Shown here: in pieces, positions 13,317 through 63,704 of the stretch
Layout of the letters: each line of letters starts with the position of its first letter
Position numbering within the stretch: position 1 is the stretch's first letter
Assembly: GCA_902801485.1 (NCBI GenBank)
Contig: CADCIP010000013.1
Coordinates: forward strand, 1-64,000
Length of the DNA: 64,000 nt
Source of the DNA: an uncultured Bacteroidales bacterium
GTDB lineage: Bacteria; Bacteroidota; Bacteroidia; Bacteroidales; Bacteroidaceae
Reading direction: 5' to 3'
Position numbers and translations under genes: made by a program
The notes under the pieces: generated by a model
What the model was told of the DNA's origin: nothing
What the model saw: the letters and a program-made list of their open reading frames with translations, nothing else
The model's database searches: none

Positions 13317-13325
13317 ATAGGTTTT

Positions 13326-43300: not shown

Positions 43301-46054
43301 GGTTACCTCGGCATACTGACCCAGCCAGCCGGAGAACAAACCATTCTCTGTATGAGTATCGTTTAGGACATGTACGTTACCAATGAAACCGCAATTGCTG
43401 ATAGTCATGTGGCAAGCAGAACCCATAGCACAACCAAAGAGACCTGCACCGTTAGTACCGCCATCAACTGTTGCATCGCCCATATTCAGCACACCACTGA
43501 TGGTGATATGACCTGGCCAGTTGGCCGACATACCTACGACACCTGTGTAACCCTGACCCAGGATAGAGCATGTTTTGTCCAACACGACATTTTTTACAAA
43601 CACACCTTCTGCTGCCCGTGCGTCTTCTGCGCTAAGGCCGCCAAAACCATTTGATGGCTGGCTGTTCATTACACCGATAAGACCTGCGCCCCTCTTTCCA
43701 GGTAAATTGATTTGGAGGTTACTGATGGTGTGGTACTGACCATCGAAATTGCCATAGAAAGGAGTCGTCTCATTACCGATTTGCGGATAGCTGCGATCGG
43801 GATAGGTCGCACTGTACTCTTCCATGTCTATATCGGCAGTCAGACGTGCGCTGACACCCAAGTTCACCTCGGCGGCATAGTGGGCCCACCACATAAGCTG
43901 AGCGGCATTGCCAATCTCGTACCAGCCATCAACGGGAGTCATGTAGTTTTCATCCAAATGTCCGCAAATAGTACATATACCATCACTATATTGATGGCTG
44001 GGAACAATAGCACTATACGTATTGGAATATGTTACATCGCCTATAGGCTTGCCGTCGCAGCCATAGTTTTCGGCAGAGGTATAAACCAACGCGCCCTCCT
44101 TCTTAAGAGGCAATGGGTATTCGTCTTCGCCAATCTTCTGATAGAAGCGGTCGAGTCCTTCCTCCTTCTCATTCAGTAAATAGGCAAGTTCGCCACTCTT
44201 AACGGCATCTTCATTCTCTAATAAGGTGTATAGGGATACGTCCCCGCCTACATTATAATTATGAAGGCTATAGACATTTTTAGCACGAATAGAGCCAGGA
44301 TTACGGGAGATAGTCTGCGTGTCACCGCCTACGTTGTTAATCGTTCCGATGAAAGCACAGTTGGTTAAATAGTTCGTGCCATTTGCCCAGCCGCAGATGC
44401 CACCAACAGCTTCTGAACCTTCTACACCATTGATGTCGCCCGCATAGATACAGTTCTCAAAGGAAGCATTTGTGCCACCACAATTCAACAGACCACCGTG
44501 AGAACAGTCACCGGTATGGGTGGTGTTGATGGTAATATCGGAAAATACGTTGCGCACCTTATGGTTGCTGCCATAGATACGGCCGACGATAGAACCGGCA
44601 TTTCGTGCGTCAGTGCTAATCGTACCGTGCATAACAACATTCTCGAACACGGCTCCAGTTCCAGTAGCTAAGTACCATTTCGGGAAAAAGGCGGCATAGT
44701 CTTCTGTGATATCTACCATCTCGATGGTGAGCGTATGGCCCTGACCGTTAAAGCTACTCTCTATCCAGTCGTTGGTGTTGAAGATAACCTGGCCAGGTTC
44801 GGGCTTGCACTCCACATCGTTCGTCAGTTTCAAGTTAAACTTACAACCGTTCTGGAAGCGGTTCCAGCTTTCTGCCAGGAAAAGGTCTTCTCCACTGCTG
44901 ATAAGGAAAGACTTATCGGAAATATCGAATCTTTCGGGATTGTTGAAGTCGAAAGCGTTCCAATTGAACTGGCCGCAAGTGGTGCAGACACCATACTTGT
45001 CGTATGTGTGCTTTGTTGCTGTGTCGCTACCAATATTGGAGAAGGTAAGCTCACCTTCAGCCTGACCTTGGCAATTGGTTGCAGAAGATGCATAAACCTG
45101 ACCCGTGCCAAATACGGCTGGCACAGGATAGGGGTCTGTACCAATCCTCTGCACCCAACGAATCTGACTTTGGTCGCTGTTCAGCTGATAGCAAACCTTT
45201 CCGCTTGCCACATCTGCGGAAGACACAAGGGTTGTTGCCAAGCCGAGCTTGCCCCAGTCGTTGGTGACATAGTTATTGGCGCTGGCACCCGTGGGACGGT
45301 TTTTGTAGCTGTCGGCATTGTAAGTTTCCAGGTTCAATACTTCAAGAGGGGCATCGCTATAGCGTACGAGGCCGGCACTCTTGCCGTCTGACCAATTGAA
45401 GTCACTTTCTGCATCATTAATGACCAGACAGTTTGCGATATTTACGCGTGCTGCATCTATCCAGGCAGCAAGACCACCGCATCTATGCGTGGTGGAGCCA
45501 GTAATCTTGATTTTAGAAAGGCAGTTCTCGATGAGTGCTACCTTGTTCAGCTGACCGGCAATACCACCAATGCTGGCATCTGCATTATCCTCAAAACTGG
45601 CTTCTACATGCACATCAACGAAGCAGTCGCGGATGACACCTGAACTGTAATTGGCAATAGCAGCAGTATGCTTATACTTCCCTGCCCTAAGGGTTCCCTG
45701 CACCTTCAGTCTTTTGATGATGGCACGCTGATCAATAGAACGGAAGAGCGCAGGACCTTCACCGTCCGTACCTTCCGAGAAATCGATTGTAATGGTGTGA
45801 CCTGCGCCATCAAAAGTGCCGAGATAGTTAGAATTGTTGGCGGCAATCTTGGTGTTGTTGGTGCCGAGGTCAATGTCAGCCGTGAGGATGGCATTGGCAT
45901 CCTTTTCTCCACCATTGACGAGTTCGACGAAGGCGAAATAGTCTTCCGTCGATCCGATCTGGTAAACGCCGTTTATTTTGTCCAGCGCATACGCAGACAT
46001 GTTATAGACCACCATGATGGTCATCAAGCATGTGTTAAGTAGTTTTCTTCTCAT
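40340..46054 (-). CDS. Giant modular secreted surface protein
   Basis: About 1904 residues from MRRKLLNTCLMTIMVVYNMS, a signal peptide; the longer frame overlaps the promoter. Four modules share an opening such as GVYQIGSTEDYFAFVELVNG and GWYEIGNAAQLMWW, beta-helix-like repeats with cysteines (GLUG-like), and a closing WVQRIGTDPYPVP or FYQKIGEDEYPLP. Between modules are CxxC knuckles (GVCTTCGQFNW, GICTICGHLD). A galactose-binding-like segment lies at about residues 1105-1290 (GAWCNAYGTVKD ... YSNDWAGWGPIKVIYCG). The tail NLSGQRLSKVQKG...NGKKVVIK resembles the type A C-terminal secretion domain of Bacteroidetes. Probably a cell-surface adhesin or glycan-binding protein; ligand unknown. Confidence 0.8.
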   Translation of the reverse strand: MRRKLLNTCLMTIMVVYNMSAYALDKINGVYQIGSTEDYFAFVELVNGGEKDANAILTADIDLGTNNTKIAANNSNYLGTFDGAGHTITIDFSEGTDGEGPALFRSIDQRAIIKRLKVQGTLRAGKYKHTAAIANYSSGVIRDCFVDVHVEASFEDNADASIGGIAGQLNKVALIENCLSKIKITGSTTHRCGGLAAWIDAARVNIANCLVINDAESDFNWSDGKSAGLVRYSDAPLEVLNLETYNADSYKNRPTGASANNYVTNDWGKLGLATTLVSSADVASGKVCYQLNSDQSQIRWVQRIGTDPYPVPAVFGTGQVYASSATNCQGQAEGELTFSNIGSDTATKHTYDKYGVCTTCGQFNWNAFDFNNPERFDISDKSFLISSGEDLFLAESWNRFQNGCKFNLKLTNDVECKPEPGQVIFNTNDWIESSFNGQGHTLTIEMVDITEDYAAFFPKWYLATGTGAVFENVVMHGTISTDARNAGSIVGRIYGSNHKVRNVFSDITINTTHTGDCSHGGLLNCGGTNASFENCIYAGDINGVEGSEAVGGICGWANGTNYLTNCAFIGTINNVGGDTQTISRNPGSIRAKNVYSLHNYNVGGDVSLYTLLENEDAVKSGELAYLLNEKEEGLDRFYQKIGEDEYPLPLKKEGALVYTSAENYGCDGKPIGDVTYSNTYSAIVPSHQYSDGICTICGHLDENYMTPVDGWYEIGNAAQLMWWAHYAAEVNLGVSARLTADIDMEEYSATYPDRSYPQIGNETTPFYGNFDGQYHTISNLQINLPGKRGAGLIGVMNSQPSNGFGGLSAEDARAAEGVFVKNVVLDKTCSILGQGYTGVVGMSANWPGHITISGVLNMGDATVDGGTNGAGLFGCAMGSACHMTISNCGFIGNVHVLNDTHTENGLFSGWLGQYAEVTNCFAMGTIDAYPDPARSWARHPNNNTVVIKNCYALEGSGVTETGYENNPEDVTFLPEEAIVSGSLAWKANGSQFRNPVWYQTIGTDENPLPSPTHGIVIYGAEQYFTATKDEDIKGIAPVIQSYEEGKAEEGVIATQTLLDEWKTVAAALGSATTIIGLADAYDALDAVKAAVQENAAVYKAYIDKCEEVKTFLENDQTFSGNLRTSLEAYLSENDEPSEDNPLGTYEYIIEEHTATAEEIQAEIERVDEWLKHAIAEDYVPGTDISWLIPNSDFAKKNTEYWTGAWCNAYGTVKDENGKDVVGVEAWNRTGDMYQTVEGMKSGYYLVGLSGAFRPSNNRYSTNYAAGVYANGIFNYFPTVIEDYIAVADTIDQVNCNLHGQGALDLPIYDDFSSTDEEQAENNGAELLGFAVHGPYGMAAAANAGRYQAYTIAYVGEDGKLTIGIKSQGTKYSNDWAGWGPIKVIYCGEEADDAFSTVLENMKERAQAIIDYTIDEDFDDPNASPNFPAELKRKLHEIIGAIDAAETVEAKANLAKQFSETFQEVYEGKRAYVDLYKFASTLEYIEGGNLPLVAKDDEGEWYETGEMVFSEADRDAIFDAAQAMLSAFHNGTYSTEEALNPYTAMEEEVAVAFANIVPEVDNDGYYLISTPEQFVAYRALFLNYNHSIKAKLVNDIDMTGIGMQPFGNNTEGNNDSGINYSGTLDGQGHALENVYIKFLGGRGCALFYELENATVKNLKLTGEYYGDMQRMGGLTRYTSGSTKIENCEIAVVMHNDIEGDATSGGVTGCSRGGGNVTVSNCLINCTVIAPNANSFGGVCGWRDGSLTLTNVLVLSKYDTAAEPTSYPSDVLSRNGCTVNNVYYAEQSLVPGAVERGTKATDAQLASGEICYSLNGDNQGENVVWFQTLGEDAHPVLDKTHLVVLYDNVLGYHNEDEDPDGIENADFNDNVNLNINIGGIYNLSGQRLSKVQKGLNIINGKKVVIK

Positions 46055-46106
46055 TGAATAATGAATTAAAATTAACAAAAAAAATGTATAATGTATATTT
46101 TCCGAC

Positions 46107-46115
46107 GCAAAAGTA
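46107..46115 (-). promoter_or_regulatory. -7 element TACTTTTGC of the surface-protein gene
   Basis: Minus-strand TACTTTTGC fits the consensus and lies 52 bp upstream of the ATG at 46054. Confidence 0.55.
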
Positions 46116-46229
46116 GTGAATCTTTGCTTATGTTCGTTCCTTATCAGATAAGTTTTTTTTATTGCGGATATATGATGCAAAATAAATGCATGAAGACGGC
46201 AAAAATTACACAATTGTACCTCAATTGGG

Positions 46230-46490: not shown

Positions 46491-46604
46491 TAACTTTCGG
46501 GACAACCTTATAATATTAATGTAATGGGAGTTCTCTTTAGAAAAATAACGAAATATTTTTGATAATTTGAAATTATTCATACATTTGTGACCAAATAATG
46601 GCCT

Positions 46605-48818
46605 ATGAACAATAAAACTAATACCCAAAAGGACTGGTGGCAACGAATTAAAAGATCTGCAAAGAACCCTGCCGGACTGACCGTTATCATTGTTGCAGCT
46701 TTGCTATTGGAATTATTGTCAGCTGTACAATACTACTATACTCACGAACTGATAGAAGATGAGCTGGAGAAACATGCCGAGATGGAACTGACTAGAAAGG
46801 CTATCATTACAAGAGACATTATAGACTATTCAGAGCGGTCAGTCAAAGGCCACATCATGGAGATTAAGAAGAACCTTGTCAACCCTGATTCGTTGGCAGG
46901 CATCATGGCATGGGCTCTTAAATTCTCTCCTCATGTGCTGGGTTATGGTATTGCATTCAATCCAGGTTACTACTCAGACAGAGATTCGCTTTTTGAGCCA
47001 TACGCCCTGAGAACAGACAGCGGCATACAATTTCTGCAAATAGCAGGCGAAAGGTTTGACTATACAAAGGATGGCTTTTTCAGATACATTCATGAAAAAA
47101 AGACCAACAGTTGGGTCGGCCCATACGACGATGCCTATCTCAAACAGAAACTGATAACCTACGCACTACCAATCTACGACTTCACAGGAGATACTGTAGC
47201 TGTGTGTGGTATCGACATTAGCTGCTACAATCTGGGAGATACGCTCAACAAACATAATATATACCCTTCATCGTTCGACTTTCTGCTTTCTGAAGAAGGT
47301 AAACTGATAGCAGGTCCAAATGACCCGCACATGAAGAGAAAGGTGGATAACGCCATCCGTGTTATTAACGACAGTACAATATCGAAAAACTGGATTATTG
47401 ACGGTAAGATACGTACAGCATATTATTATGATGAGGAGGAAGGTCAGGACCTGTCTCTGTTCTTTGCCACCATAGCAGGAGAAACTCCCTGGCAGATTGC
47501 TGTGGTTTGTTACGATAGCGAGGTTTACAGCTCGCTTAAACAACTGCGCATTCGCTTGCTCCTGTTTTCCCTGCTGGCATTCGGAATCCTGCTTTTCATC
47601 GTAGGTTGTTTTGCAAGAAACGAGGATAAACTAAAGCAGAAGACCATACAGGAGCAACGAATTGCCGGCGAACTACGAGTGGCCAACCAAATACAGCAAA
47701 GTATGTTGCCCCATCATCACCTTCAACAGGACAATGTGGACATTTACGGTTCGCTGGTGCCTGCCCGAGAAGTTGGCGGCGACCTGTTCGACTACTTCGT
47801 CCGAGACGAGAAACTGTTCTTCTGCATAGGCGATGTCAGCGGCAAGGGGGCTGCATCGGCTATGCTGATGGGTGTCATACACTCGTTGTTCCGCGCTTTC
47901 TCGGTTCATGAGATGAATCCTTCCCGTATCATGCAAGCTATAAACGAGGCAGCGTGTCAGGGTAATGAAACCAATATGTTTGTAACGCTTTTCATCGGCG
48001 TACTGGATTTGCCTACAGGACGATTGCGTTACTGCAATGCAGGACACGATGCACCCATTATCATCCCTACACTGGAAACAATACCTGCCAACCCGCATCT
48101 TCCCGTTGGTGTATTTGAAGACACTATGTATAAAACAGAAGAAACAAAGATTCTTCCCAACTGTACAATCTTCCTATATACCGACGGACTGACGGAGGCA
48201 AAGAACATGGATCGGAAACTTTTCGGCATGGAACGTATTGAGAAGATACTTGCTACCTGTAATGATATGCAGCCAAAGCAAATCCTAGGAATAGTCAGGG
48301 AAGGGGTGCAAAGATTTGTGGGCTATGCCGAACAAAGCGACGACCTGACAATGCTGGCTATCCGCTATACTCCCAAACAGTTTGTAAGCACGCTCACTGA
48401 GACATATATGCTAAAGAACGATATCCATGAGCTTACAAACCTTAACAGATTCCAGAAGTCTGTTTATGCCAAGCTGAATATAGATACATCAATGGCTCGA
48501 AAATTACAACTGGCTGTCGAGGAAGCCGTTGTGAACGTAATTGACTATGCCTATCCCAATGACATAGAAGGAAGTATCGAGGTACGCATGATGTCCGACG
48601 GCCAAAGCCTAAAGATTGTGATTATCGACTCTGGCGTTTTCTTCGACCCAACTGCAAAAGAGAAAACCGACACTACACTTTCTGCCGAAGAGCGTCAGAT
48701 AGGCGGATTAGGACTTCTGCTGGTACGTGAACTTATGGACTCTATCAACTACGAGCGCGAAGAAGGAAAAAATATACTAACACTTATAAAGAAATACAAC
48801 AATGAAAACAACAATTGA
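46605..48818 (+). CDS. Membrane sensor with PP2C phosphatase and kinase domains (RsbU-RsbW-like fusion)
   Basis: 737 residues. Two transmembrane segments (about 24-43 and 310-335) flank a periplasmic Cache-like sensor domain (KFSPHVLGYGIAFNPGYYSD, GPYDDAYLKQKLITYALP). After a short coiled coil comes a SpoIIE/PP2C phosphatase (about 385-590; REVGGDLFDYFV, GDVSGKGAASAMLM, QSDDLTMLAIRY). The last 130 residues are an anti-sigma-type HATPase (LAVEEAVVNVIDYAYP, DSGVFFDP, GGLGLLLVREL). So one protein may both dephosphorylate and phosphorylate a STAS antagonist. The STAS gene overlaps its 3' end by 17 bp. A weak promoter (TACATTTGT, 46580-46588) precedes it. Confidence 0.88.
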   Translation: MNNKTNTQKDWWQRIKRSAKNPAGLTVIIVAALLLELLSAVQYYYTHELIEDELEKHAEMELTRKAIITRDIIDYSERSVKGHIMEIKKNLVNPDSLAGIMAWALKFSPHVLGYGIAFNPGYYSDRDSLFEPYALRTDSGIQFLQIAGERFDYTKDGFFRYIHEKKTNSWVGPYDDAYLKQKLITYALPIYDFTGDTVAVCGIDISCYNLGDTLNKHNIYPSSFDFLLSEEGKLIAGPNDPHMKRKVDNAIRVINDSTISKNWIIDGKIRTAYYYDEEEGQDLSLFFATIAGETPWQIAVVCYDSEVYSSLKQLRIRLLLFSLLAFGILLFIVGCFARNEDKLKQKTIQEQRIAGELRVANQIQQSMLPHHHLQQDNVDIYGSLVPAREVGGDLFDYFVRDEKLFFCIGDVSGKGAASAMLMGVIHSLFRAFSVHEMNPSRIMQAINEAACQGNETNMFVTLFIGVLDLPTGRLRYCNAGHDAPIIIPTLETIPANPHLPVGVFEDTMYKTEETKILPNCTIFLYTDGLTEAKNMDRKLFGMERIEKILATCNDMQPKQILGIVREGVQRFVGYAEQSDDLTMLAIRYTPKQFVSTLTETYMLKNDIHELTNLNRFQKSVYAKLNIDTSMARKLQLAVEEAVVNVIDYAYPNDIEGSIEVRMMSDGQSLKIVIIDSGVFFDPTAKEKTDTTLSAEERQIGGLGLLLVRELMDSINYEREEGKNILTLIKKYNNENNN

Positions 48819-49104
48819 AGAAATCGACGGCAAGTATATTGCCACGTTAGAAGGAGAAATGGATACTGCAGCCGCTATGGAAGCAGAGGAAGTTCTGAAC
48901 CCACTTTACCAAAGTAACGGAAAAGATGTAATTATCGACTGTACCAATCTGGAATACATAGCTTCCAGTGGCCTGCGCATCCTGCTCCGCATCCTAAAGG
49001 ATGCCAAAGCCAACGGTAGTCGTGTAGTGCTAAAAGGTGTTAACGACGATATAAAGACCGTTTTTAAGCTGACAGGCTTTATTTCCATCTTCGAATTTGA
49101 ATAA
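48802..49104 (+). CDS. STAS-domain anti-sigma factor antagonist
   Basis: 100 residues, a single STAS domain: IEEIDGKYIATLEGEMDTAA, VIIDCTNLEYIASSGLRILL and LKGVNDDIKTVFKLTGF. The Ser in YIASSGLRIL is the site phosphorylated in RsbV/SpoIIAA-type proteins. The 17-bp overlap with the phosphatase/kinase gene indicates they work as a partner-switching pair. The sigma factor or effector that it controls is not evident nearby. Confidence 0.93.
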   Translation: MKTTIEEIDGKYIATLEGEMDTAAAMEAEEVLNPLYQSNGKDVIIDCTNLEYIASSGLRILLRILKDAKANGSRVVLKGVNDDIKTVFKLTGFISIFEFE

Positions 49105-49196
49105 ATAATATATGGAACAGGAAAATGAAGAATAATGAATTTGCCACCTCAGGAACGGTAAGAGGTTTCCGGTGTGAAGGAAGAAATTATGCAGTA

Positions 49197-50549
49197 ATGA
49201 AGCGAGCCTTATTTGGCGTAGCCATCCTTATTCTTCATTCTTCATTCTTCACATCATCATGCCGGGCACAGACAGATTCTACGAAGGCCAACAAAGTGTC
49301 TATGGATTTGCAATTTTTGGCTCATGGCGAGATATGTGCCGGTGGTCTGCCCAAGCCACCCGTCAACAATCCGGATCAGCCGGAAGCCAGTTTTTCGGCT
49401 TTTCTGTTAGGACGTACCCGCTTATCCGTTAACTACGAACGCAACTGGCTGGAGGCAAAGGTGACATTGCAGAACAATGCCGTTTGGGGTATGCGTAGCA
49501 ATATGTCGGTGGACCTATACGAAGGATGGGTTAAGATGAAATCCAAGAAAGGACTCTTCACTAAGATAGGACGCATAGCACTGTCATACGACGACGAGCG
49601 TATCATAGGTACCAACGACTTTGCCACAGCATCTCTTTCGCACGATGTGGCCATGGTAGGATACGAAGGACACGGACACAAGATACATGGAATATTCGCA
49701 TTCAACCAGAATAGCGAGAATGTGTACGACGGAACATACTACGATAACGGCTCGCAATACTACAAGACAATGCAGACCGTATGGTACCACTATGAATTTC
49801 CCAAGTTCCCGCTGAACGCTTCACTGCTCTTTATGAATTTGGGCATTCAGGCGGGCATCGAAGGTGATAACTATAACCCGCCAACAACTCAATTCCAACA
49901 GATGTGGGGTACTTATCTGAATTATCACCCAAAATATCTCACACTGGAGGCTTCGTACTATCGGCAAACAGGCAAAATGGTGAATGAAAAGAAATACTAT
50001 CAACCCATCAAAGCATGGATGACCAGCGTGAAAGCTACCATCACCCCCACAGACCGTTACGGATTCCGACTTAGTTATGAGTACCTGAGCGGTGATGACT
50101 ATGTGCCAGTCCCTTACGGCGGTACAGCGGGATTGCCCAGGCACGAGGTGCTGAAAGGCTTCACACCCCTCTATGGTTCACGCACCAAGTTCTACGGTAT
50201 TCTGGATTATTTCTACGCCAGTGCTTACATAAACGGTTTCACACCGGGTCTGCAGAATGCCTCTGTTGGTGCCTTTGGCAGACCTTTACCCAAGTTGCAA
50301 CTATCAGCCGACTATCATTATCTGGCTGTGGCTACCAATCTTGATAAACTAAGCAATACACTGGGGCATAGCATAGATTTGGGAGTCACATACGATTTCT
50401 CGAAAGATGTTTCACTTACTGCAGGCTATACCATGATGGCGGGGACAGAAACTATGAACAGACTGAAACAGGGCAGTGGTAGCAAATACGCTCATTGGGC
50501 ATGGTTCTCGCTGATTGTTTCCCCCACCCTATTTACCACAAGATTCTAA
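49197..50549 (+). CDS. Outer-membrane beta-barrel, porin/alginate-export-like
   Basis: About 450 residues from MKRALFGVAILI; the frame start at 49125 leaves no signal peptide at the N-terminus and is not preferred. The h-region of the signal peptide contains seven codons (ILHSSFF) encoded by three exact ATTCTTC repeats. The mature part alternates hydrophobic and polar residues with many aromatic girdle positions (RTRLSVNYERNWLEAKVTLQ, NASLLFMNLGIQAG, IDLGVTYDFSKDVSLTAGYT) and ends in Phe, as barrel proteins do. It lies 92 bp after the STAS gene and 33 bp before the NRPS gene. Substrate unknown; peptide or product export is one possibility. Confidence 0.75.
   Translation: MKRALFGVAILILHSSFFTSSCRAQTDSTKANKVSMDLQFLAHGEICAGGLPKPPVNNPDQPEASFSAFLLGRTRLSVNYERNWLEAKVTLQNNAVWGMRSNMSVDLYEGWVKMKSKKGLFTKIGRIALSYDDERIIGTNDFATASLSHDVAMVGYEGHGHKIHGIFAFNQNSENVYDGTYYDNGSQYYKTMQTVWYHYEFPKFPLNASLLFMNLGIQAGIEGDNYNPPTTQFQQMWGTYLNYHPKYLTLEASYYRQTGKMVNEKKYYQPIKAWMTSVKATITPTDRYGFRLSYEYLSGDDYVPVPYGGTAGLPRHEVLKGFTPLYGSRTKFYGILDYFYASAYINGFTPGLQNASVGAFGRPLPKLQLSADYHYLAVATNLDKLSNTLGHSIDLGVTYDFSKDVSLTAGYTMMAGTETMNRLKQGSGSKYAHWAWFSLIVSPTLFTTRF
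49230..49250 (+). repeat. Three exact ATTCTTC heptads in the barrel's signal peptide
   Basis: ATTCTTC repeated three times without mismatch gives 21 bp, seven codons in frame. Related heptads in the PI-PLC gene encode a similar peptide (SSFFTLHSSH). Confidence 0.9.
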
Positions 50550-50553
50550 TTTA

Positions 50554-50567
50554 TTATCTATTATCTA
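50554..50567 (+). repeat. Two TTATCTA heptads upstream of the NRPS
   Basis: TTATCTA occurs twice in tandem with degenerate neighbours on both sides, between the barrel stop and the NRPS start codon at 50583. Confidence 0.7.
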
Positions 50568-50582
50568 ATTACCCATTTTTTC

Positions 50583-53500
50583 ATGAAAACATTTGCACCA
50601 TTATCAAAAACACAGTATGGCATATATGTAGAGTGCGTTCAGCACTTAGGTGAATACTGTTACAATATAACTTATTTATATACTCTTGATGTCGGTTTGG
50701 ATGAAGAAAAGCTTAAGGCAGCGATAGAGTCTGTTGTAGCCGCACATCCTACGTTGTTTACACGCATTGAACTGGACGAACAAGGCGAACCAGTGCAAAG
50801 CATCGATGACAGCGAGACGTTCAGCCTGGAGGTAGAACGTATCATAGACATTGAAGCGGAAAAGAGGGGAATGGTGATGCCGTTTCATATCTTTAAAGAT
50901 CGGCTGTTCCGTATCCGACTGCTGAAAGACAGCGAGCATTTCTACATCTTAGTTGACGTTCACCATCTCATTGCCGATGGTACGTCCCTGAAGGTGATAC
51001 TTGCCGACATTGATGCTGCCTATAGTGGTAAGGAAATAGAGCCAGAGGTTTTGACACTGGCCGACGTGGCTCGTGCGGAAGCAGAGCAAATGAAGACACC
51101 AGCCTTCGAGGAGTGTAAGCAGTGGTATGCCCAGAATTTTGATTGCAGCGACACTTTCAGTCAGCTTATACCCGACAGCGAAGGGACGGATTCGAGAATA
51201 GGTCACGCTAAGCGGAAACTGAGTGTCAGTATGGAATCTATCGAGTCCTATTGCAAGGCACACGGTATCTTCAAGAACACGTTCTTTACAGCCGTATATA
51301 GCTATCTATTGGCGAAATACAACAACGACCAAGAGGCCCTGTTCAGTACTGTCTATAAGGGTCGCCAAGACAAGCGACTGTCACACTCCGTTGCGATGTT
51401 GGCCAAAACGATACCCTTATATGCGAAATTTGACAATGACACTACGGTTCTCGATTTCCTCAAGACTTTACAGAAACAGCTGACGGGTTGCCGAGAACAT
51501 GAATTATATTCCTTCACCGATGTGATGAGTGACCTGAATCTGCAGTTTGGCTCGTTTTTTGCTTGGCACGGAAGACTATTTGATCAAGTTGAGATAGATG
51601 GAAAGCGGACAGAACCTATCGAACTGCACTATACTACTTTGGAGGTACCGCTCTATGTAAAGGTCCTTGTTCTGGATGGTCATTATTATGTGGAAGCAGA
51701 CTACCAAATGGATGTCTATACGGAGCAGCTGATCAGCCAGTTCCTGGAGAGCTACGAGGCTGTCGTTGAAGCCTTCCTTAAGGAGGACTATCTGTGCGAT
51801 ATCAGCATTGCCACTAAGTCGCAGACAGAATTGCTCGACAGCTTTAACCAGACTGATGTGCCTTACGACAATACGCAGACCATTGTCTCGCTCTTCCGCC
51901 AGCAGGTGGCTCAGATGCCCGACAACATTGCTATGGTCTATCGCGACGTGCGGCTGACTTACAAGCAGGTGGATGAGATATCGGAACGCATCGCACAATA
52001 TGTCAAATCGTTGGGACTTGGCTCTGAGGATGTGGTATCCGTGCTTATTCCACGTTGCGAATGGATGGTACTCGCCTCGTTGGGTGTGCTGAAGGCTGGG
52101 TGTGCTTATCAGCCATTAGACCCGTCGTATCCTGCAGAGCGACTGAACTTCATGATGCAGGATGCTTCAGCAAAGCTGCTGATAGCCGACGAGGAGCTGC
52201 GCCCGTTAGTGGACGAATACAAGGGACTGGTGCTCTTTACCAAAGACATCGATGCTCTTCCTGCTGCTGCAACACCGGTTGATGCAGACATCACACCGTC
52301 ATCGCTGTTTATCATGCTCTATACTTCTGGTTCTACAGGTGTGCCTAAGGGTTGCCAGTTGACACATGGCAACCTGGTCTGCTTCTGTCATTGGTATCAG
52401 CGCTATTACGAGATGGCACCTGACAGGCGTGTGGCAGCCTATGCCAGCTACGGCTTCGATGCCTGCATGATGGATATGTATCCCGCACTCACCTGTGGTG
52501 CCTGCGTGCATATCATCCCCGAGGAAATCCGACTGGATCTGATTGCCCTAAACGACTACTACGAACGTGAACATATTACACATGCGTTCATGACAACGCA
52601 GGTGGGTTATCAGTTTGCCACAAGCATTGAGAACCACTCGCTGCTTTACCTCTCGACAGGTGGCGAGAAGCTGGCTTCGCTGACGCCACCAACCAACTAC
52701 TTATTGACAAACATCTACGGTCCTACCGAAAGTACAGTCTGCATCACCAGATTTCCTATGAAGGAGACAATGAAGGACATTCCTATTGGCAGGGCTATGG
52801 ACAACGTCAAGCTTTATATTGTCGATAAGGAGGGTCACCGACTACCTGTGGGTGCGGCTGGCGAGTTGTGGGTTGCAGGCCCACAAGTGAGTCGGGGTTA
52901 TCTGAACCGTCCGGAGAAGACAGCAGAAGTATTTATCGACAATCCGTTCGAAATAGGAAATAGTAAATACACTCGCATCTATCGCACAGGCGATATCGTT
53001 CGCTATCTTACCGATGGAAACATCCAGTTTGTGGGCCGCAAAGACGGACAGGTGAAGATTCGCGGTTTTCGTATCGAGCTGAAAGAGGTGGAGGGTGTCA
53101 TCCGCGATTTCCCAGGTATCAAGGATGCTACCGTGCAGGCGTTCGACGAGGAAGGAGGCGGTAAGTTCATCGCTGCCTACATCGTCAGCGACGAGCAGGT
53201 GGATATTGAGGCACTCAACAACTTCATACTCGACCAGAAGCCACCCTATATGGTGCCTGCCGTTACGATGCAGATTGACAGCATCCCGCTGAACCAAAAC
53301 CAGAAGGTGAACAAGAAAGCCCTTCCGGAGCCAGTCAGGTCTGTTGTTGGGTCACAGCAACTCAGCAATCAGGCCCCGCTGAATGTCCTGGAGCAGGAGA
53401 TACACAGCATCATTGCTAAGATTATCAATACCGAGGACTTTGGTGTGACCACCGTGCTGGGCTATGTGGGTCTGACGTCTATCATGTCCATCAAGCTCGC

Positions 53501-56500
53501 CATACAAATCAACAAGCGTTTCGGCGTTTCTCTGGATTCTAAGGCTTTGGCTAAGACAGGTAGTGTGCAGAGCATTGAGAACGAGATTCTGAAGGTAATG
53601 ATGAGCGGAGGTGGAGCTGCCAATAAGGAAGTTGATGAGGTGAAGCATGCTGACATGAGTAATATCCCTCTGTCTTACGCACAGATGGGTGTCTATGTCG
53701 ATTGCATGAAACAGCCCGAGTCCACCATATACAATACTCCTGTCATAGCAAAGTTCCCGAAGAATGTGGACATCCAGTTGCTTGTCAAGGCTATGGAGAC
53801 ACTCGTCAAAACTCATCCTATCCTACAGGCACATTTCGGAAGTGTCGGGGCTGAAATTGTTCAGACAGTTGACCCAAACCAACCTGTTGAGATTACTCAA
53901 AGCAAACATTCTGAAGAGGAAATTCCAAACTATAAGTTGGAGTTTGTAAAGCCTTTCAACCTCAGACAAGGACCTCTCTATCGCATAGAGATTGTTACTA
54001 CTGAAGAGCACGTGTATCTGATGATGGATATTCATCACCTTGTGGTAGATGGAGGTTCGTTCGATGTCCTCCTGGAACAACTGTTCGAGTTACTCAACGG
54101 ACAGGAGATAGAACCTGAAACCTTTACCTATGCCGACTTCGTGGCTGCGCAGAAAGAAGCTGAGAGCAGTGAGGAATATGCAGAGGCGCGTGACTTCTTC
54201 CAGGAACGCCTAAGCAAGATAGAAGGTGTTACGGAAATACCTGCAGACCTTACCAATCCAAAGGAACAGGGTACTGTAAGTACTATATACACACCGCTGA
54301 ACTTTGAGGAGATCGATGATTTCTGTCGTCAGCGTAATATCTCTCCGGCCCATCATATCCTTGCTGCCACATTCTATGCACTGTCACGCTTCGCCAATAA
54401 TGAGCAGTTGTGTATAACCACAATCAGTAACGGACGTTCCGATCTACGTATCAGCAATACTGTTGGTATGTTTGTCAATACCTTGGCATTGAGTGCTTTC
54501 ATTGAGGGACAAAGCGTGATGGAGTTCCTAAACGAGACCAGCAAGAACTTCGACGAGACGTTGCGCCACGAGAGTTATCCGTTTGCACGCATTGCCTCCG
54601 ACTATGACCTTACCGCAGAGATTATGTTCGCCTATCAGATGGGTATCTTCGCCGACTATAAGTACAAAGACCAGACGGTTGACATAGATACGTTCGAGAC
54701 GGAGACACCTAAATTCCGTATAGCATTCTTCATCCAGAATGACCCTGAGGGTAAGCCGAGCATCTGTCTGCAATACGATAACGGACGATACAGCCAGGAG
54801 TTGATGCAGAGTCTGGCGCAGTCAATCAGTAATGCTGCGAATATTTTCATGAGCAATCCTGATGCTAAGCTTAAGAGTGTTTCACTGCTCGATGACAAGC
54901 AGACAACTTTGCTCGACAGCTTCAACAATACTGATGTGACTTACGACAACACACAGACTGTCATTTCGTTGTTCCGCAAGCAGGTAGAGAGTGTGCCTGA
55001 CAATATCGCTGTGATATATCATGATGTTCGACTGACCTATAAGCAAGTGGATGAGATGTCAGACCGCATTGCTGCATACCTTATCCAAAAGGGACTTAAG
55101 AACGAAGATGTTGTTTCTATCATAATTCCTCGTAGCGAGTGGATGGTTGTAGCTTCTTTGGGTGTCCTGAAGGCCGGATGTGCTTATCAGCCTTTGGACC
55201 CAAGTTATCCTCAGGAGCGCCTGAACTTCATGATGCAGGATGCTTCCGCCAAGCTTCTTATAGCTGACGAAGAACTGCGCTCAATCGTAGATGAATACCA
55301 GGGTGAGGTATTGCTGACAAAGGATATAGAGAAGCTTCCGAATACTCCGATTCCTCAGAATATTCAGATTACTCCAAAGTCGCTTTTCATCCTGCTCTAC
55401 ACCTCTGGTTCTACGGGTGTGCCCAAGGGCTGCCAGTTGGAGCACGGCAATCTCGTTTGCTTCTGCCATTGGTATCAGCGTTACTATGACCTCAAACCTG
55501 GCAACAAGGTGGCTGCATATGCCAGCTATGGCTTCGATGCCTGCATGATGGATATGTATCCTGCCCTTACCACAGGTGCTTCCGTAGTGATTGTTGGCGA
55601 TGACATTCGTCTGAACCTCCCTGATCTGAATGCGTATTTCAATGAAGAGGGTGTGACCCATTCGTTCATGACGACACAGGTGGGATGCCAGTTTGCGATG
55701 AACTGTGACAATCATTCGTTGCACCACCTTTCTGTCGGAGGTGAAAAGATTCTGCCGCTTACTCCACCTAAGAATTATAAACTCCATAATGGCTACGGAC
55801 CTACAGAGTGTACCATCTTTACTACCACATATCAACAGACGGAGTTTGAGCAGAATGCTCCTATCGGCAAACCGCTGGACAATCTGCAGCTATACATTGT
55901 AGATAAGGATATGAACCGTCTTCCACTGGGAGCTGCCGGAGAGATGCTTGTGGCCGGTCCGCAGGTGAGCCGAGGATACTTGAACCTGCCTGAGAAGACA
56001 GCCGAGACATACATACAATGGAATGGTAAGCGCTGCTACCGCACAGGTGATGTGGTGCGCTATCTGGCTGACGGCAATATCCAATTCGTAGGACGTCGAG
56101 ATGGTCAGGTGAAGATTCGTGGTTTCCGAATCGAACTGAAAGAGGTGGAATCTGTGATTCGCGAATTCCCAGGCATAAAGGATGCTACAGTTCAGGCATT
56201 TGACTATGAGAATGGCGGTAAGTTTATTGCAGCTTATATCGTCAGCGATGAACAGATAGACATCAAGGAATTGAACGATTTCATCGGTAAGCAGAAACCA
56301 TCTTATATGATTCCTGCTGCCACGATGCAGATTGACAACATTCCTCTGAACCAGAATCAGAAGGTTAACAAGAAGGCATTGCCAGCTCCTGTCGTTCAGG
56401 TCGCTGATCACAAGTATGTAGAGCCGGCTAACGATACAGAGAAACTTTTCTGCAGTATTTTCGGCGAAGTATTGTCATTGGACAAGATTGGTGCTACCGA

Positions 56501-57863
56501 CAATTTCTTTGAACTTGGCGGAACATCACTCATGGTGACGAAGGTTATCATCGAAGCCGACAAGGCGGGTCATCATGTGGCTTACGGTGATGTGTTCACA
56601 CATGCTACACCGCGTCTGTTGGCACAACTTGTAACAGGCGAAACACCTGTAGAGAATACTGACGACGAGGTGACGAACTTCGATTATACTGGCATCGATG
56701 CTCTTTTGCAGCAAAACAATGCGGAATCATTCCGTAAGGGTGAACTGCAAAAGTTAGGCAATGTGCTGCTTACTGGTGCTACCGGTTATCTGGGCATCCA
56801 CGTTTTGCGCGAACTCATCGACTCTGATGCGCCTACAATCACATGTCTTGTGCGTGCTCAAGACCAGCCGTCAGCAGAAAGGCGATTGAAGAACTTGCTG
56901 TTCTACTATTTCGAAACATCGTTCAAGGAGCTTTTCGGCACACGTCTCTTTGTTGTTAACGGTGATGTGACACAGGATATGACAAGCATTTTACCAGAAG
57001 GACATCCTGTCATCAATACTGTCTTCAACTGTGCTGCCAATGTGAAACACTTCTCTAAAACTTCAGACATTGAAGATGTAAATATCGGCGGAGCACAACG
57101 TTGCGTGGAGTTCTGTCTGAAGACTGGTGCCAGACTGGTACATATCTCTACGACCTCCGTTGCTGAACTATGGATTATCCGCAACAGCGGTGAAGAGATA
57201 CCTAAACTCGATGAGCGTAAGTTCTGGTTCGGTCAGTTCCTCGATAACCGCTATATTCACTCTAAGTTCCTCGCTGAACGAATGGTTCTCGATGCTATTG
57301 CCCATCATGGCCTTAATGGTAAGGTGATGCGTGTGGGCAATCTGGCACCACGAAGCTATGATGGTGAGTTCCAAGCTAACTTCAACAGCAACAGTTTCAT
57401 GGGACGCCTCAAGGTGTTCTACACACTGGGATGCTGCTCTTATGACGATTACGACGAGCTTACCGAGATGTCGCCTATTGATCAGACGGCAAAGGCTGTG
57501 GTGCTCCTCGCAAGCACGCCAAAGGAGTGTAACGTATTCCAGCCGTTCAACAACCACACAGAACTGTTTGGTGACTTACTGCAACGCATGAGTAAGGTAG
57601 GAAAGGAGATACACTTTGTGGAGGGTGACGAATTTGAGAAGGCTCTTGCTGAAGCTGGTCAAGACCCTGAGAAGGCTAAGTTGCTCTCCGCCATGATGGC
57701 ATATCAGGATATGACACACGGTCAGAAGACGGGCATCATAGAAAGAGATAACCGCTATACCTGTGCCGTACTCCATCGCCTCGGCTTCCAATGGAGTGAC
57801 ACTGCCTGGGATTATATAGAGCGAATGCTTACAGCTATTAGCGGATTCGGATACTTCGAGTAA
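50583..57863 (+). CDS. Dimodular non-ribosomal peptide synthetase, C-A-T-C-A-T-R
   Basis: 2426 residues. Order of domains by motif: condensation 1 (HHLIADG, about residue 127); adenylation 1 (LYTSGSTGVPKG about 579, FDACMMD about 625, YGPTES about 712, RGFRIELKEVE about 827); thiolation 1 (GLTSIMS, about 964); condensation 2 (HHLVVDG, about 1151); adenylation 2 (LYTSGSTG about 1606, YGPTEC); thiolation 2 (FFELGGTSL, about 1975); reductase (LLTGATGYLG about 2062, Y-x3-K in YIHSKF). A terminal reductase implies release as an aldehyde or alcohol; an N-terminal C domain suggests N-acylation of the first residue. No phosphopantetheinyl transferase is in view. Hand-read specificity positions (DAMFLTIVC and DAMFLVGIF, then Lys) are tentative and match no code I can name. 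The two modules are very alike, indicating internal duplication. Confidence 0.95.
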   Translation: MKTFAPLSKTQYGIYVECVQHLGEYCYNITYLYTLDVGLDEEKLKAAIESVVAAHPTLFTRIELDEQGEPVQSIDDSETFSLEVERIIDIEAEKRGMVMPFHIFKDRLFRIRLLKDSEHFYILVDVHHLIADGTSLKVILADIDAAYSGKEIEPEVLTLADVARAEAEQMKTPAFEECKQWYAQNFDCSDTFSQLIPDSEGTDSRIGHAKRKLSVSMESIESYCKAHGIFKNTFFTAVYSYLLAKYNNDQEALFSTVYKGRQDKRLSHSVAMLAKTIPLYAKFDNDTTVLDFLKTLQKQLTGCREHELYSFTDVMSDLNLQFGSFFAWHGRLFDQVEIDGKRTEPIELHYTTLEVPLYVKVLVLDGHYYVEADYQMDVYTEQLISQFLESYEAVVEAFLKEDYLCDISIATKSQTELLDSFNQTDVPYDNTQTIVSLFRQQVAQMPDNIAMVYRDVRLTYKQVDEISERIAQYVKSLGLGSEDVVSVLIPRCEWMVLASLGVLKAGCAYQPLDPSYPAERLNFMMQDASAKLLIADEELRPLVDEYKGLVLFTKDIDALPAAATPVDADITPSSLFIMLYTSGSTGVPKGCQLTHGNLVCFCHWYQRYYEMAPDRRVAAYASYGFDACMMDMYPALTCGACVHIIPEEIRLDLIALNDYYEREHITHAFMTTQVGYQFATSIENHSLLYLSTGGEKLASLTPPTNYLLTNIYGPTESTVCITRFPMKETMKDIPIGRAMDNVKLYIVDKEGHRLPVGAAGELWVAGPQVSRGYLNRPEKTAEVFIDNPFEIGNSKYTRIYRTGDIVRYLTDGNIQFVGRKDGQVKIRGFRIELKEVEGVIRDFPGIKDATVQAFDEEGGGKFIAAYIVSDEQVDIEALNNFILDQKPPYMVPAVTMQIDSIPLNQNQKVNKKALPEPVRSVVGSQQLSNQAPLNVLEQEIHSIIAKIINTEDFGVTTVLGYVGLTSIMSIKLAIQINKRFGVSLDSKALAKTGSVQSIENEILKVMMSGGGAANKEVDEVKHADMSNIPLSYAQMGVYVDCMKQPESTIYNTPVIAKFPKNVDIQLLVKAMETLVKTHPILQAHFGSVGAEIVQTVDPNQPVEITQSKHSEEEIPNYKLEFVKPFNLRQGPLYRIEIVTTEEHVYLMMDIHHLVVDGGSFDVLLEQLFELLNGQEIEPETFTYADFVAAQKEAESSEEYAEARDFFQERLSKIEGVTEIPADLTNPKEQGTVSTIYTPLNFEEIDDFCRQRNISPAHHILAATFYALSRFANNEQLCITTISNGRSDLRISNTVGMFVNTLALSAFIEGQSVMEFLNETSKNFDETLRHESYPFARIASDYDLTAEIMFAYQMGIFADYKYKDQTVDIDTFETETPKFRIAFFIQNDPEGKPSICLQYDNGRYSQELMQSLAQSISNAANIFMSNPDAKLKSVSLLDDKQTTLLDSFNNTDVTYDNTQTVISLFRKQVESVPDNIAVIYHDVRLTYKQVDEMSDRIAAYLIQKGLKNEDVVSIIIPRSEWMVVASLGVLKAGCAYQPLDPSYPQERLNFMMQDASAKLLIADEELRSIVDEYQGEVLLTKDIEKLPNTPIPQNIQITPKSLFILLYTSGSTGVPKGCQLEHGNLVCFCHWYQRYYDLKPGNKVAAYASYGFDACMMDMYPALTTGASVVIVGDDIRLNLPDLNAYFNEEGVTHSFMTTQVGCQFAMNCDNHSLHHLSVGGEKILPLTPPKNYKLHNGYGPTECTIFTTTYQQTEFEQNAPIGKPLDNLQLYIVDKDMNRLPLGAAGEMLVAGPQVSRGYLNLPEKTAETYIQWNGKRCYRTGDVVRYLADGNIQFVGRRDGQVKIRGFRIELKEVESVIREFPGIKDATVQAFDYENGGKFIAAYIVSDEQIDIKELNDFIGKQKPSYMIPAATMQIDNIPLNQNQKVNKKALPAPVVQVADHKYVEPANDTEKLFCSIFGEVLSLDKIGATDNFFELGGTSLMVTKVIIEADKAGHHVAYGDVFTHATPRLLAQLVTGETPVENTDDEVTNFDYTGIDALLQQNNAESFRKGELQKLGNVLLTGATGYLGIHVLRELIDSDAPTITCLVRAQDQPSAERRLKNLLFYYFETSFKELFGTRLFVVNGDVTQDMTSILPEGHPVINTVFNCAANVKHFSKTSDIEDVNIGGAQRCVEFCLKTGARLVHISTTSVAELWIIRNSGEEIPKLDERKFWFGQFLDNRYIHSKFLAERMVLDAIAHHGLNGKVMRVGNLAPRSYDGEFQANFNSNSFMGRLKVFYTLGCCSYDDYDELTEMSPIDQTAKAVVLLASTPKECNVFQPFNNHTELFGDLLQRMSKVGKEIHFVEGDEFEKALAEAGQDPEKAKLLSAMMAYQDMTHGQKTGIIERDNRYTCAVLHRLGFQWSDTAWDYIERMLTAISGFGYFE

Positions 57864-61211: not shown

Positions 61212-62363
61212 TTACAGAAAGACTTTCTTCTTTCCGTCGATAATGTAAAGGCCTTTCTTTACATGTGAAGAATGAAGAGTGAAAAATGAAGAATTGAGTT
61301 TTCTTCCTGAGAGGTCATAAACTTCCTCTTGAGATTTTTCACTTTTCATTCTTTCATTTTTCACTTCGCCTATGGCATCCTGAACTACCGAAGAGGTTTC
61401 AAGGCAATTATAGATGATAAGGTCTATGAGTTCCTGTCCCTGGTACTCATTGTCTCCGGCGAAATCCATCAGAACAAACCCCATGGGACCGCTCTTTCCC
61501 TGCATATAATCAATAAAAGCTTTATTGCAAGTACGGGCACACTCTTGGACACCTTCGAAAGTAGAATAAGAAATACCGAAGATAGAACCTTTTTTGCTAT
61601 AGCCTGAAGCATGGTTCAAGAAGAGACGGTTCTCTTTGTCCTTTATAGAACGGGCCAACATAGATTTGATGGCCGAAACCTTCTTAGCTAACTGACCTTC
61701 TGCTGCCACATCATACATATCCTGAGTGGACATAATCATAGAAGCGCCAGAGGGTCCGGAAAGCCTTCTGTCATACACGGAGTTATCAGCACCGCCATTA
61801 AGATAACCGCCAAAGGGTCCGCTTTCATAAGTGTCGCGACTCATAAGCAAAAGCTTGCCGCGCATATCCTTTACTGTCAGAGATGGTGAAAAATCTATAA
61901 TATAGGTTTTAAATTGTGTCAGGCATTTTCCCATCTGATTAGGCCATTCAGTCTTTTGGGAACTGGATTCACTATCATCCTCATGACGCATAATAACGAA
62001 AATAAATTCCTGCGGGTGAGCATCCAGAAAGTTGCAAAGCGTAGTCAGAACATCTGTAAATTTGACATTGGTAGAAACAATGCCATGATAAATCATCATT
62101 TCATTCCCTGTCCAGGCAGGACGAAGATCGAACATTCTTACGCCATGTTCTAACTGCTGCGCTATAGTATAAGTCTGAGTATGTGCACTTCCTGTTAAAC
62201 CACTACTACTGCAACTGCTGGTGGCTGCATCATGAGCACCAGGAATAGACAGTCTTTTCAGGAGAAGGTTATCTTCAAGTGACTGCATCCAATTCAGATA
62301 ATCAATAGCCCTAAGAGGCAGCAAGCAAAAGAACAGGGTAATCAGAAAGATGTTTTTTTTCAT
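61212..62363 (-). CDS. Secreted PI-PLC-like phospholipase with a disrupted sorting-type tail
   Basis: 383 residues with a signal peptide (MKKNIFLITLFFCLLPLRA). The PLC-X catalytic fold shows LSIPGAHDAATSSC with the first active-site His, VRMFDLRPAWTGNEMMIYHG with the second His region, and LLMSRDTYE. Such enzymes cleave phosphatidylinositol or GPI-type lipids in the periplasm or outside the cell. The C-terminal VYDLSGRKL ... KKGLYIIDGKK motif resembles the tail of the large surface protein, but the two halves are separated by residues SSFFTLHSSH, coded by 7-bp repeats (61265-61292). Confidence 0.85.
   Translation of the reverse strand: MKKNIFLITLFFCLLPLRAIDYLNWMQSLEDNLLLKRLSIPGAHDAATSSCSSSGLTGSAHTQTYTIAQQLEHGVRMFDLRPAWTGNEMMIYHGIVSTNVKFTDVLTTLCNFLDAHPQEFIFVIMRHEDDSESSSQKTEWPNQMGKCLTQFKTYIIDFSPSLTVKDMRGKLLLMSRDTYESGPFGGYLNGGADNSVYDRRLSGPSGASMIMSTQDMYDVAAEGQLAKKVSAIKSMLARSIKDKENRLFLNHASGYSKKGSIFGISYSTFEGVQECARTCNKAFIDYMQGKSGPMGFVLMDFAGDNEYQGQELIDLIIYNCLETSSVVQDAIGEVKNERMKSEKSQEEVYDLSGRKLNSSFFTLHSSHVKKGLYIIDGKKKVFL
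61265..61292 (-). repeat. Four degenerate heptads in the PI-PLC C-terminus
   Basis: On the plus strand GTGAAGA, ATGAAGA, GTGAAAA, ATGAAGA follow in register and interrupt a conserved C-terminal motif. Confidence 0.85.
61335..61363 (-). repeat. Second heptad array in the PI-PLC C-terminal linker
   Basis: TTTTTCA, CTTTTCA, TTCTTTCA (8 bp) and TTTTTCA lie just upstream of the VYDLSGRK codons and encode the Lys/Glu-rich VKNERMKSEK linker. Confidence 0.75.
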
Positions 62364-62470: not shown

Positions 62471-63655
62471 TTATCTGAAAGAGGGGTTTTCTACTTTGTA
62501 CTGAAGAGTCACCGGACCGAAAACTTCTTTAAGTGTAAGGAAGAAATCTGCTCCGCACTTCTCGATCTGCTCGCAAACAAATTTGGTAGGAGCAACAATG
62601 GTAAGATGTTTATCCGTTATGCTGTCAACTCTGCAGAAGACAAAATACTGACTGAAGAAAGGTTCCCCTACCCTCTCTTGAATTAGCTGCATAAACTTGT
62701 ACCACTTCTCTTGCTGCTCATCTGTAAGATGACTGGTATCAGAAGGAGACGAATGAACTTCTTCGTGAACATCGGCATCAGGAACAGCAGGATTAAGAAT
62801 AAAACGCACGCTGTCTGGATTACCTCTCTTCTTACCATTGTGATATACAGGCTCATATTCAAAAGTAAATTCTATCTCACCTCGTTTAGCAAGCTTCTCC
62901 ATTTCGCGCTGCGCAGGTTTCAAGACATCACGGTGGAATACTGCCCAAGTAGAACATTTGTCCTGAAGAACCTTAGTCCTATCCTTAGTATAAACCAGCA
63001 CACCCAGGAATTCCTTTAGTGCTTCATATCCAAGCGTACACATTCGGGCCTTCTTCCATGCACTCAGATAAATATACAAACGAGGTGTTCTGGGGCTTCT
63101 ACATAACTTAACTATACCACCTAAATGTTCAACGTAAGCACCACTTTTGTTAAAAACAAGATCAGCAACGGAAGCATTCATATCAATTTTTATAATACCA
63201 CTTCTACGTTCCTGACCTGTGGTTGTTGTATAAGTGGGTACATCAACATCAGTAAAAATTACACTTGTCTTTGTACGTTTCTGACCCGTTTCGTCTGTAT
63301 AATTAAATGTAGTATCCAATTTCGTCAGGGCTTTACATGCCTCGTGAACAGCAGCATACTCCTTGGTTTTAACTCCCAAAGACTGTAACGGGACCTCAAA
63401 AGTTATCTTGCCTTTCGACAATTCTTCTTTAGAAAAGAGCGGTCCCATCTTACCGTCAACGAAACATTCATTGATTCTGGTCTGCATTGTTGCAGCAATA
63501 GCAACAAGAACGTTTGTCTGAATAAGAGAAAAATCACCTCTTATCTGAGAGTAAACAAGTGGATTCTTAATATAATCTGAATTCTCCAACTGCTGGATAA
63601 GTTCGTTTTTCGGACTTACCATTTGCAATTTTCCGTTTGTTTTCTTTGTTGCCAT
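62471..63655 (-). CDS. Rep_3-type replication initiator with a DnaA domain I-like C-terminus
   Basis: About 394 residues from MATKKTNGKLQMVSPKNELI; longer frames overlap the promoter. The N-terminal two-thirds resembles RepB/Rep_3 tandem winged-helix initiators (NPLVYSQIRGDFSLIQTNVL, RSPRTPRLYIYLSAWKKARM). The last about 80 residues fit DnaA domain I by eye: W at the start, FFSQYFVF, LTIVAPTKFVCEQIEK (compare APNRFVLDWV of E. coli DnaA) and VTLQYKV. This domain would recruit DnaB helicase directly. Seven 22-bp iterons lie 130 bp upstream. Rep proteins bind iterons to open the origin and autorepress their promoter. Confidence 0.85.
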   Translation of the reverse strand: MATKKTNGKLQMVSPKNELIQQLENSDYIKNPLVYSQIRGDFSLIQTNVLVAIAATMQTRINECFVDGKMGPLFSKEELSKGKITFEVPLQSLGVKTKEYAAVHEACKALTKLDTTFNYTDETGQKRTKTSVIFTDVDVPTYTTTTGQERRSGIIKIDMNASVADLVFNKSGAYVEHLGGIVKLCRSPRTPRLYIYLSAWKKARMCTLGYEALKEFLGVLVYTKDRTKVLQDKCSTWAVFHRDVLKPAQREMEKLAKRGEIEFTFEYEPVYHNGKKRGNPDSVRFILNPAVPDADVHEEVHSSPSDTSHLTDEQQEKWYKFMQLIQERVGEPFFSQYFVFCRVDSITDKHLTIVAPTKFVCEQIEKCGADFFLTLKEVFGPVTLQYKVENPSFR

Positions 63656-63689
63656 TGATATTTTGGAAGTAAAAAACCCTATATTATAT

Positions 63690-63704
63690 ATATAATGTAC
63701 ACGC
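63690..63704. repeat. 15-bp direct repeat, copy upstream of the rep gene
   Basis: ATATAATGTACACGC overlaps the end of the rep -7 element and repeats the motif at 62436-62450 with one mismatch. Confidence 0.65.

Follow-up and report, generated by a model that had tools for sequence, protein, structure and literature searches.

A predicted partner switch accompanies a reductase-terminated dimodular NRPS in Bacteroidales and, in archaeal and firmicute relatives, a MATE exporter with an RsbW-fold tail

In a computational analysis of 64,000 nucleotides of DNA from an uncultured Bacteroidales bacterium (hereafter the window), we found that a dimodular nonribosomal peptide synthetase (NRPS) terminated by a reductase domain is the last gene of a same-strand run of four, following a sensor phosphatase/kinase, a STAS protein and an AlgE-like outer-membrane barrel. 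The motifs tested in these genes are intact, the neighbourhood recurs with this type of NRPS, and in archaeal and firmicute relatives the NRPS usually adjoins a MATE exporter fused to a C-terminal domain of modelled RsbW fold that has lost its lid. Under the control of a phosphorylation switch, the operon probably directs the synthesis and export of a small reactive peptide. We propose, with about even confidence, that a partner switch governs a peptide-aldehyde pathway and that this control extends to export, at least in archaeal and firmicute hosts. Partner switches are mainly known for controlling sigma factors, and the reactive peptides of known relatives inhibit proteases. If our proposal is true, a domain of anti-sigma type can have a role in transport, both in bacteria and in archaea, and there would be a handle on gut and rumen chemistry in the signal that switches on the release of reactive peptides. 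What stands out is the arrangement of switch and exporter; the NRPS type is known already, as are, from one methanogen, phosphatase and antagonist neighbours. A preliminary description of this DNA had missed that archaea and Firmicutes, too, have the control module next to NRPSs of this type, and that the exporter there often bears an RsbW-fold domain. Among the papers listed in literature searches on partner switching, MATE transporters and NRPSs, none seemed to deal with the MATE-RsbW fusion; the primary dipeptide-aldehyde papers of 2017 and 2018 could hold an earlier report.

The NRPS is encoded by an intact open reading frame (ORF) with an ATG start at 50583–57863 on the forward strand (2426 aa), as given in the ORF list of the window. 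It is not a chance frame, because eight Pfam families fall in that single frame and full-length relatives occur in the genus at 41–75% identity. Pfam recovered two Condensation, two AMP-binding and two PP-binding domains with a NAD_binding_4 reductase last and, together with an alignment of motifs across 55 relatives of 2350–2530 aa in which every catalytic motif tested was present in the window copy, bears out the order C-A-T-C-A-T-R given in the preliminary description. The C1 domain (50595–51782, + strand, approximate limits; Pfam and alignment) carries HHLIADG at aa 127–133, of which H127, H128 and D132 are kept in 100% of these relatives and G133 in 92%; it is an intact N-terminal C domain that may be an acyl-accepting starter. 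The A1 core (51894–52904, +) is followed by T1 (53430–53612, +, approximate), whose Ser966 is found in 55 of 55 relatives within a variant core, GLTS. The canonical T-domain core is LGGxS, and since the G, L and T of the variant are kept in 100, 92 and 92% of relatives it is a family trait and no sign of decay. In the second module, C2 (53661–54911, +; PF00668 at aa 1027–1443 and motif alignment) has H1151, H1152, D1156 and G1157 kept in 100%, and A2 (55035–56192, +; TIGR01733 at aa 1485–1870) is followed by T2 (56448–56633, +; Pfam and alignment) with Ser1982, also kept in 100%. The terminal thioester reductase of SDR type (56769–57860, +; PF07993) contains TGATGYLG at aa 2064–2071, conserved at 81–100% by position, as well as Thr2190 and Tyr2224 (100%) and Lys2228 (98%). 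The copy in the window thus has two complete C-A-T modules and a terminal SDR-type reductase, and the usual motifs of its A domains and its intact reductase support the preliminary description.

The specificity letters read DAMFLTIVC(K) for A1 and DAMFLVGIF(K) for A2, with an assumed position mapping and final K; by the general specificity rules they suggest at most a hydrophobic aliphatic substrate, at a resolution short of naming an amino acid. With A domains numbered by their order in the ORF and fragments included, 13 of 89 second A domains have the letters of A2, and there is more variety among first A domains (82 distinct sets in 118). The NRPS would couple two amino acids, of which C1 probably N-caps the first, and the R domain would release the dipeptide as an aldehyde, so that the predicted product is an N-acyl dipeptide aldehyde. 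The preliminary description had coupled this product with a pyrazinone formed from it. An N-acylated aldehyde has no free amine, however, and a pyrazinone could arise only after deacylation; the two products are therefore alternatives. An AMP-ligase-like gene, which may supply the N-cap, occurs at 14 of 120 loci (40 from the genus plus the best 80 of 502 relatives described below) and is not beside the window NRPS among the ORFs scanned around it. At L038, L042, L094, L128 and other loci this gene, which we take to be PaaK-like, is about 450 aa long and adjoins the NRPS; the Pfam AMP-binding match of the L038 copy is below cut-off. We found no phosphopantetheinyl transferase (PPTase) in the 64-kb window and a single PF01648 match in the genome, on contig C38, in agreement with the earlier view that activation depends on another locus. 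This PPTase has 205 aa from the first ATG and is at best 38–40% identical to cluster-linked PPTases. As the genome is only 85% complete by the tool's estimate, a second PPTase could be missing.

NRPSs of this kind are not rare in the group. A match at 1e-40 was obtained in 65 of 139 genomes of the genus, the weakest at about 30% identity, and a rumen survey gives 934 NRPS clusters in Bacteroidaceae (PMC8241843); the surprise that the preliminary description saw in a Prevotella setting for a class known mainly from Firmicutes does not hold up. That survey also notes similarity between archaeal and firmicute NRPSs (PMC8241843), and another source places dimodular NRPSs said to make pyrazinones in 13 of 981 rumen genomes (PMC9540692). 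We read 40 loci of the genus, picked from the match list by match and not by neighbours, and at 33 of them the NRPS frame measures 2350–2530 aa. A named genome collection was also scanned with an alignment of the PCP-R region, and the best 80 of 502 confirmed relatives were kept; by NCBI phylum they comprise 38 Bacillota, 24 Bacteroidota, 16 Methanobacteriota, 1 Actinomycetota and 1 Planctomycetota, a sample that leans archaeal, the alignment being headed by an archaeal sequence. In a quick R-domain tree of 96 rows, the nearest row to the window is a sheep-derived MAG of an uncultured Prevotella (L134, 89%), a supported group holds 15 of the 16 Methanobacteriota, and the genus rows L046, L047 and L050 group with a Eubacterium MAG. 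The latter grouping suggests transfer of the NRPS between lineages, with the reservation that bins can hold foreign contigs. At L060 and L061 the NRPS is longer than that of the window, at about 3,040 aa, probably by an extra module. At L134 a 1245-aa ORF (12369–16103), the start of which in our judgement resembles Cas9, lies shortly 3' of the NRPS.

Among characterised enzymes, the solved chain 6VTJ gives a full-length alignment with the R domain of the window (3.5e-94), and the R domain of AusA, the aureusimine synthetase, a poorer one (4e-45). We take 6VTJ to be the PCP-R didomain of Methanobrevibacter ruminantium; in the genome scan, a Methanobrevibacter MAG (locus L099) matched it at 90%. 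AusA is, like the window NRPS, dimodular and R-terminated, and the R domains align, but AusA begins with an A domain and the window NRPS with a C domain. Assignment to the AusA equivalog NF047350 was rejected because the score, 1150.9 bits, is far under the cut-off of 2500 and because the protein starts with a C domain. Gut dipeptide-aldehyde NRPSs, including that for ruminopeptin, were reportedly described by Guo in 2017 and by Schneider and Balskus in 2018. Their architecture is similar to that of the window NRPS; their products have been characterised, whereas the product of the window NRPS is a prediction. A review summarises the dipeptide aldehydes from such gut clusters, some of which were isolated as pyrazinones (PMC12327764).

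The four genes are closely spaced, with an overlap of 17 bp followed by gaps of 20 and 33 bp, and would form one operon with a single transcript (46605–57863). A candidate promoter of Bacteroidetes type (TTTG-N18-TAnnTTTG) lies at 46558–46587 (+), 17 bp before the SpoIIE start; it is predicted from the sequence, the window holding 7 such matches against 1.87 expected from shuffles. The first gene (46605–48818, +) encodes, by Pfam, a PDC/dCache sensor, a SpoIIE (PP2C) phosphatase and an RsbW-like kinase domain, with PF22673, PF07228 and PF13581 (HATPase_c_2) above their cut-offs and dCache_1 below its own. Its residues D393, D410, D527 and D580, presumably the metal-binding Asp of PP2C enzymes, are kept in 98–100% of 63 relatives, and the N-box, DxG and GGLG lid motif of the kinase domain are all intact. 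The second gene (48802–49104, +) encodes a 100-aa protein resembling STAS anti-sigma-factor antagonists (PF01740; TIGR00377 at 74.1 bits, cut-off 53.45) with a Ser55 invariant in 57 of 57 relatives. The PP2C Asp residues, the GHKL kinase motifs and the phosphorylatable Ser expected of a partner switch are therefore all present. In the mechanism we envisage, the PDC/Cache domain of the sensor protein would detect a signal in the periplasm, and the phosphatase and kinase domains of that protein would then determine whether the STAS protein is phosphorylated. The third gene (49125–50549, +) encodes an outer-membrane barrel modelled with about 18 strands (pLDDT 70.5, pTM 0.69), whose best Foldseek match is the alginate exporter AlgE (2.2e-15, TM 0.57); the predicted folds are alike but identity is 12%, and at 22.2 bits against a cut-off of 25.2 the protein falls outside the AlgE family (PF13372, Alginate_exp). 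This barrel could pass the product, or a related solute, across the outer membrane. Pfam and the barrel model thus agree with the preliminary description, which had noted a barrel and a signalling pair ahead of the NRPS that could serve export and control. The genes 3' of the NRPS encode F5/8 type C and GH3 proteins and look unrelated in the Pfam scan.

Regulators of this kind accompany the NRPS well beyond the window. A PP2C (SpoIIE), RsbW or STAS gene lies near the NRPS at 31 of the 40 genus loci and at 46 of the 80 named loci (best 80 of 502), the latter ranging from Methanobrevibacter to Clostridia; counting MATE as well, the figures are 34 of 40 and 62 of 80 (best 80 of 502). None of the three regulators is present at 34 of the 80 named loci (best 80 of 502), some of which are cut by contig ends, nor at L051–L054, where the NRPS starts at A1. 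It might be argued that this is an ordinary gut dipeptide-aldehyde or pyrazinone NRPS beside common genes whose association has no functional meaning: SpoIIE is indeed found in many genomes of the genus (105 of 139), and the best NCBIfam model for the NRPS is AusA, though far under its cut-off. We regard this as very improbable, since SpoIIE occurs at 25 of the 40 genus loci where its genome-wide counts would predict 0.66 (a Poisson comparison that ignores kinship among genomes and yields a formal probability too small to quote), and since the association with regulators crosses domains of life. Moreover, by coordinates, the sole SpoIIE of the genome is at the NRPS locus in four of five single-SpoIIE genomes (G142, G147, G152 and G162, not G141), which come from 31 genomes chosen with loci and neighbours known beforehand. 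An enrichment statistic for 31 named genomes (0.9 expected, 20 observed) was left unused, those 31 of the 80 loci having been picked with knowledge of their neighbours.

A related arrangement has been reported from an archaeon. The NRPS of M. ruminantium has phosphatase, antagonist and MatE neighbours, for which sensing, regulation and export were suggested (Leahy et al., 2010, PMC2812497). Like the window, that cluster (mru0068) has two C-A-T modules and a terminal domain, which the text calls a thioesterase and the legend of Fig. S8 a thioester reductase, and its NRPS is similarly flanked by an anti-sigma factor antagonist and two phosphatases of the serine type (PMC2812497). It differs in that a MatE gene is adjacent, whereas the window has no MATE at this place, a barrel instead, and a kinase fused to the phosphatase; the passages on that cluster make no mention of an RsbW-like domain on MatE (PMC2812497). 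In archaea and Firmicutes a MATE ORF of about 560–605 aa adjoins the NRPS and has an additional C-terminal domain; scored by family and a length above 540 aa, this extended MATE is found at 15 of 16 Methanobacteriota and 21 of 38 Bacillota loci, at none of 24 Bacteroidota loci (all within the best 80 of 502) and at 3 of the 40 genus loci. Where Bacteroidota loci have a MATE (13 of 24, best 80 of 502), it lacks the tail and is mostly about 440 aa long. Pfam found MatE plus HATPase_c_2 in four of five fusion proteins tested and MatE alone in the fifth, as well as in two further fusion proteins. The modelled tail (pLDDT 82.6) had anti-sigma factors of the SpoIIAB/RsbW/UsfX kind as all of its best 16 Foldseek hits, including UsfX-RsfB, SpoIIAB-SpoIIAA and RsbW-RsbV, several of them solved with their STAS antagonists. 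In the alignment, the lid columns 690–694 are gapped in 40 of 40 tails, which also lack GGLG; the N-box Asn is kept in 70%, the D of DxG in 85% and its G in 97% (n=40); the GGLG glycines are kept at 95–100% in 46 SpoIIE-fused and 20 stand-alone RsbW domains.

Within Methanobrevibacter, a match to the fusion, weaker homologues included, occurs in 50 of 67 genomes. We sampled 40 (every third of rows 1–118 of the match list), all of which have the tail by HMM, and scored as neighbours genes on the same strand within 300 bp. An R-NRPS lay within 24 bp on the same strand in 22 of the 40, another NRPS was near in one, and a gene like the ATP-grasp protein of L163 lay within 50 bp in nine. The remaining eight had neither neighbour by this rule; three of these are on contigs below 5.4 kb, and at L161 the NRPS is on the opposite strand. 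At L160 and L162–L169 the neighbour of the fusion, about 565 aa long, is an ATP-grasp protein and may be a peptide ligase; Pfam confirmed ATP-grasp in four of four tested.

The pair in the window resembles the SpoIIAB/SpoIIAA and RsbW/RsbV switches in having a phosphatase, a GHKL kinase and a STAS protein with a conserved Ser, and the anti-sigma fold of SpoIIAB and RsbW is shared by the modelled MATE tail of the relatives; the pair differs in the fusion of the kinase to the sensor phosphatase and, in the relatives, in the fusion of a lid-less copy to a transporter. A lid-less RsbW fold on an exporter is best read as a docking module for the STAS protein, and export would then be what the switch controls. 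Its probable target in archaeal and firmicute relatives would accordingly be the adjacent MATE, whose tail is a plausible docking site for the unphosphorylated STAS protein. The whole could also be a classical partner switch, in which an anti-sigma factor or other regulator encoded elsewhere would be under the control of the STAS protein, and with it transcription of the operon, with export ungated. This is a serious possibility, to which we give somewhat less weight. It matches the known SpoIIAB/RsbW systems, and the run begins with the regulators. Regulation of NRPS expression was proposed for M. ruminantium (Leahy et al., 2010, PMC2812497). The eight ORFs scanned around the NRPS, however, hold no sigma or anti-sigma gene besides the switch pair itself, and a classical switch leaves unexplained the RsbW-fold domain found on the exporter at 36 of 54 archaeal and firmicute loci combined (best 80 of 502).

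Our proposal gains support from the occurrence of the STAS protein. Among 42 listed matches of the window type (at least 64% identity), all are in genomes with an NRPS match, as compared by eye, and 33 share a contig with it. Of the other nine we read the surrounding 9–14 kb at eight, leaving out G106, and at seven of these eight further places in the genus the STAS gene stands without an NRPS, as a classical switch would allow; at the eighth, L193, it adjoins an NRPS end. The barrel is present at five of the seven and SpoIIE at four, so that in Bacteroidota the tie may be to the barrel. This persistence of the barrel favours a further alternative, that the switch controls the barrel or envelope with the NRPS as a passenger or that the STAS or kinase domain acts on the NRPS itself, and at L055–L057 the labelled genes are SpoIIE, STAS and NRPS alone. 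We consider it unlikely, because a cytosolic STAS protein cannot directly contact an outer-membrane barrel and because no STAS-binding feature is known in the NRPS. STAS-barrel or SpoIIE-STAS-barrel sets without an NRPS in the stretch read occur at L186, L188 and L190–L192. The NRPS C-terminal end at L193 (5187–5357, − strand; 96% identity to that of the window over 57 aa) is at the contig edge, convergent with a SpoIIE-STAS-barrel set.

To return to export gating, the NRPS in the window adjoins the barrel and the F5/8 type C gene, with no MATE gene beside it, and so lacks the adjacent MATE of the M. ruminantium-type cluster; the nearest MATE homologues in its genome are 22–23% identical. The switch may therefore act there on an unlinked transporter or on transcription. 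In a broader version of our proposal, archaea, Firmicutes and Bacteroidota of rumen and gut would use sensor and STAS protein to control, after translation, how small peptides made by enzymes are released. The STAS protein would dock on an anti-sigma-kinase domain that has lost its lid and that is, or once was, part of a MATE serving NRPS products and the ATP-grasp products of methanogens; the sensor may even read the exported compound, in a signalling loop common to archaea and bacteria. In this full form we hold it to be doubtful.

Other transporters and genes were seen near these loci. At L022, L023, L025, L060, L112 and L134, relatives of the window copy, the gene next to the NRPS belongs to one family, a sodium:neurotransmitter symporter by Pfam at L022, the sole one tested; homologues in the genome of the window are only 38–39% identical and located elsewhere. 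That genome has a second pair of SpoIIE-kinase and STAS genes (L194, G000:C24, 4888–9360), which flanks a CitMHS/TrkA_C transporter by Pfam. On the reverse strand of the window, a 1957-aa ORF without Pfam or NCBIfam match (40340–46213) is 29% identical over 1189 aa to an ORF of L186, and a protein with a PI-PLC X domain (61212–62363) and one with DnaA_N and weak Rep3_N matches (62471–63790) are also encoded.
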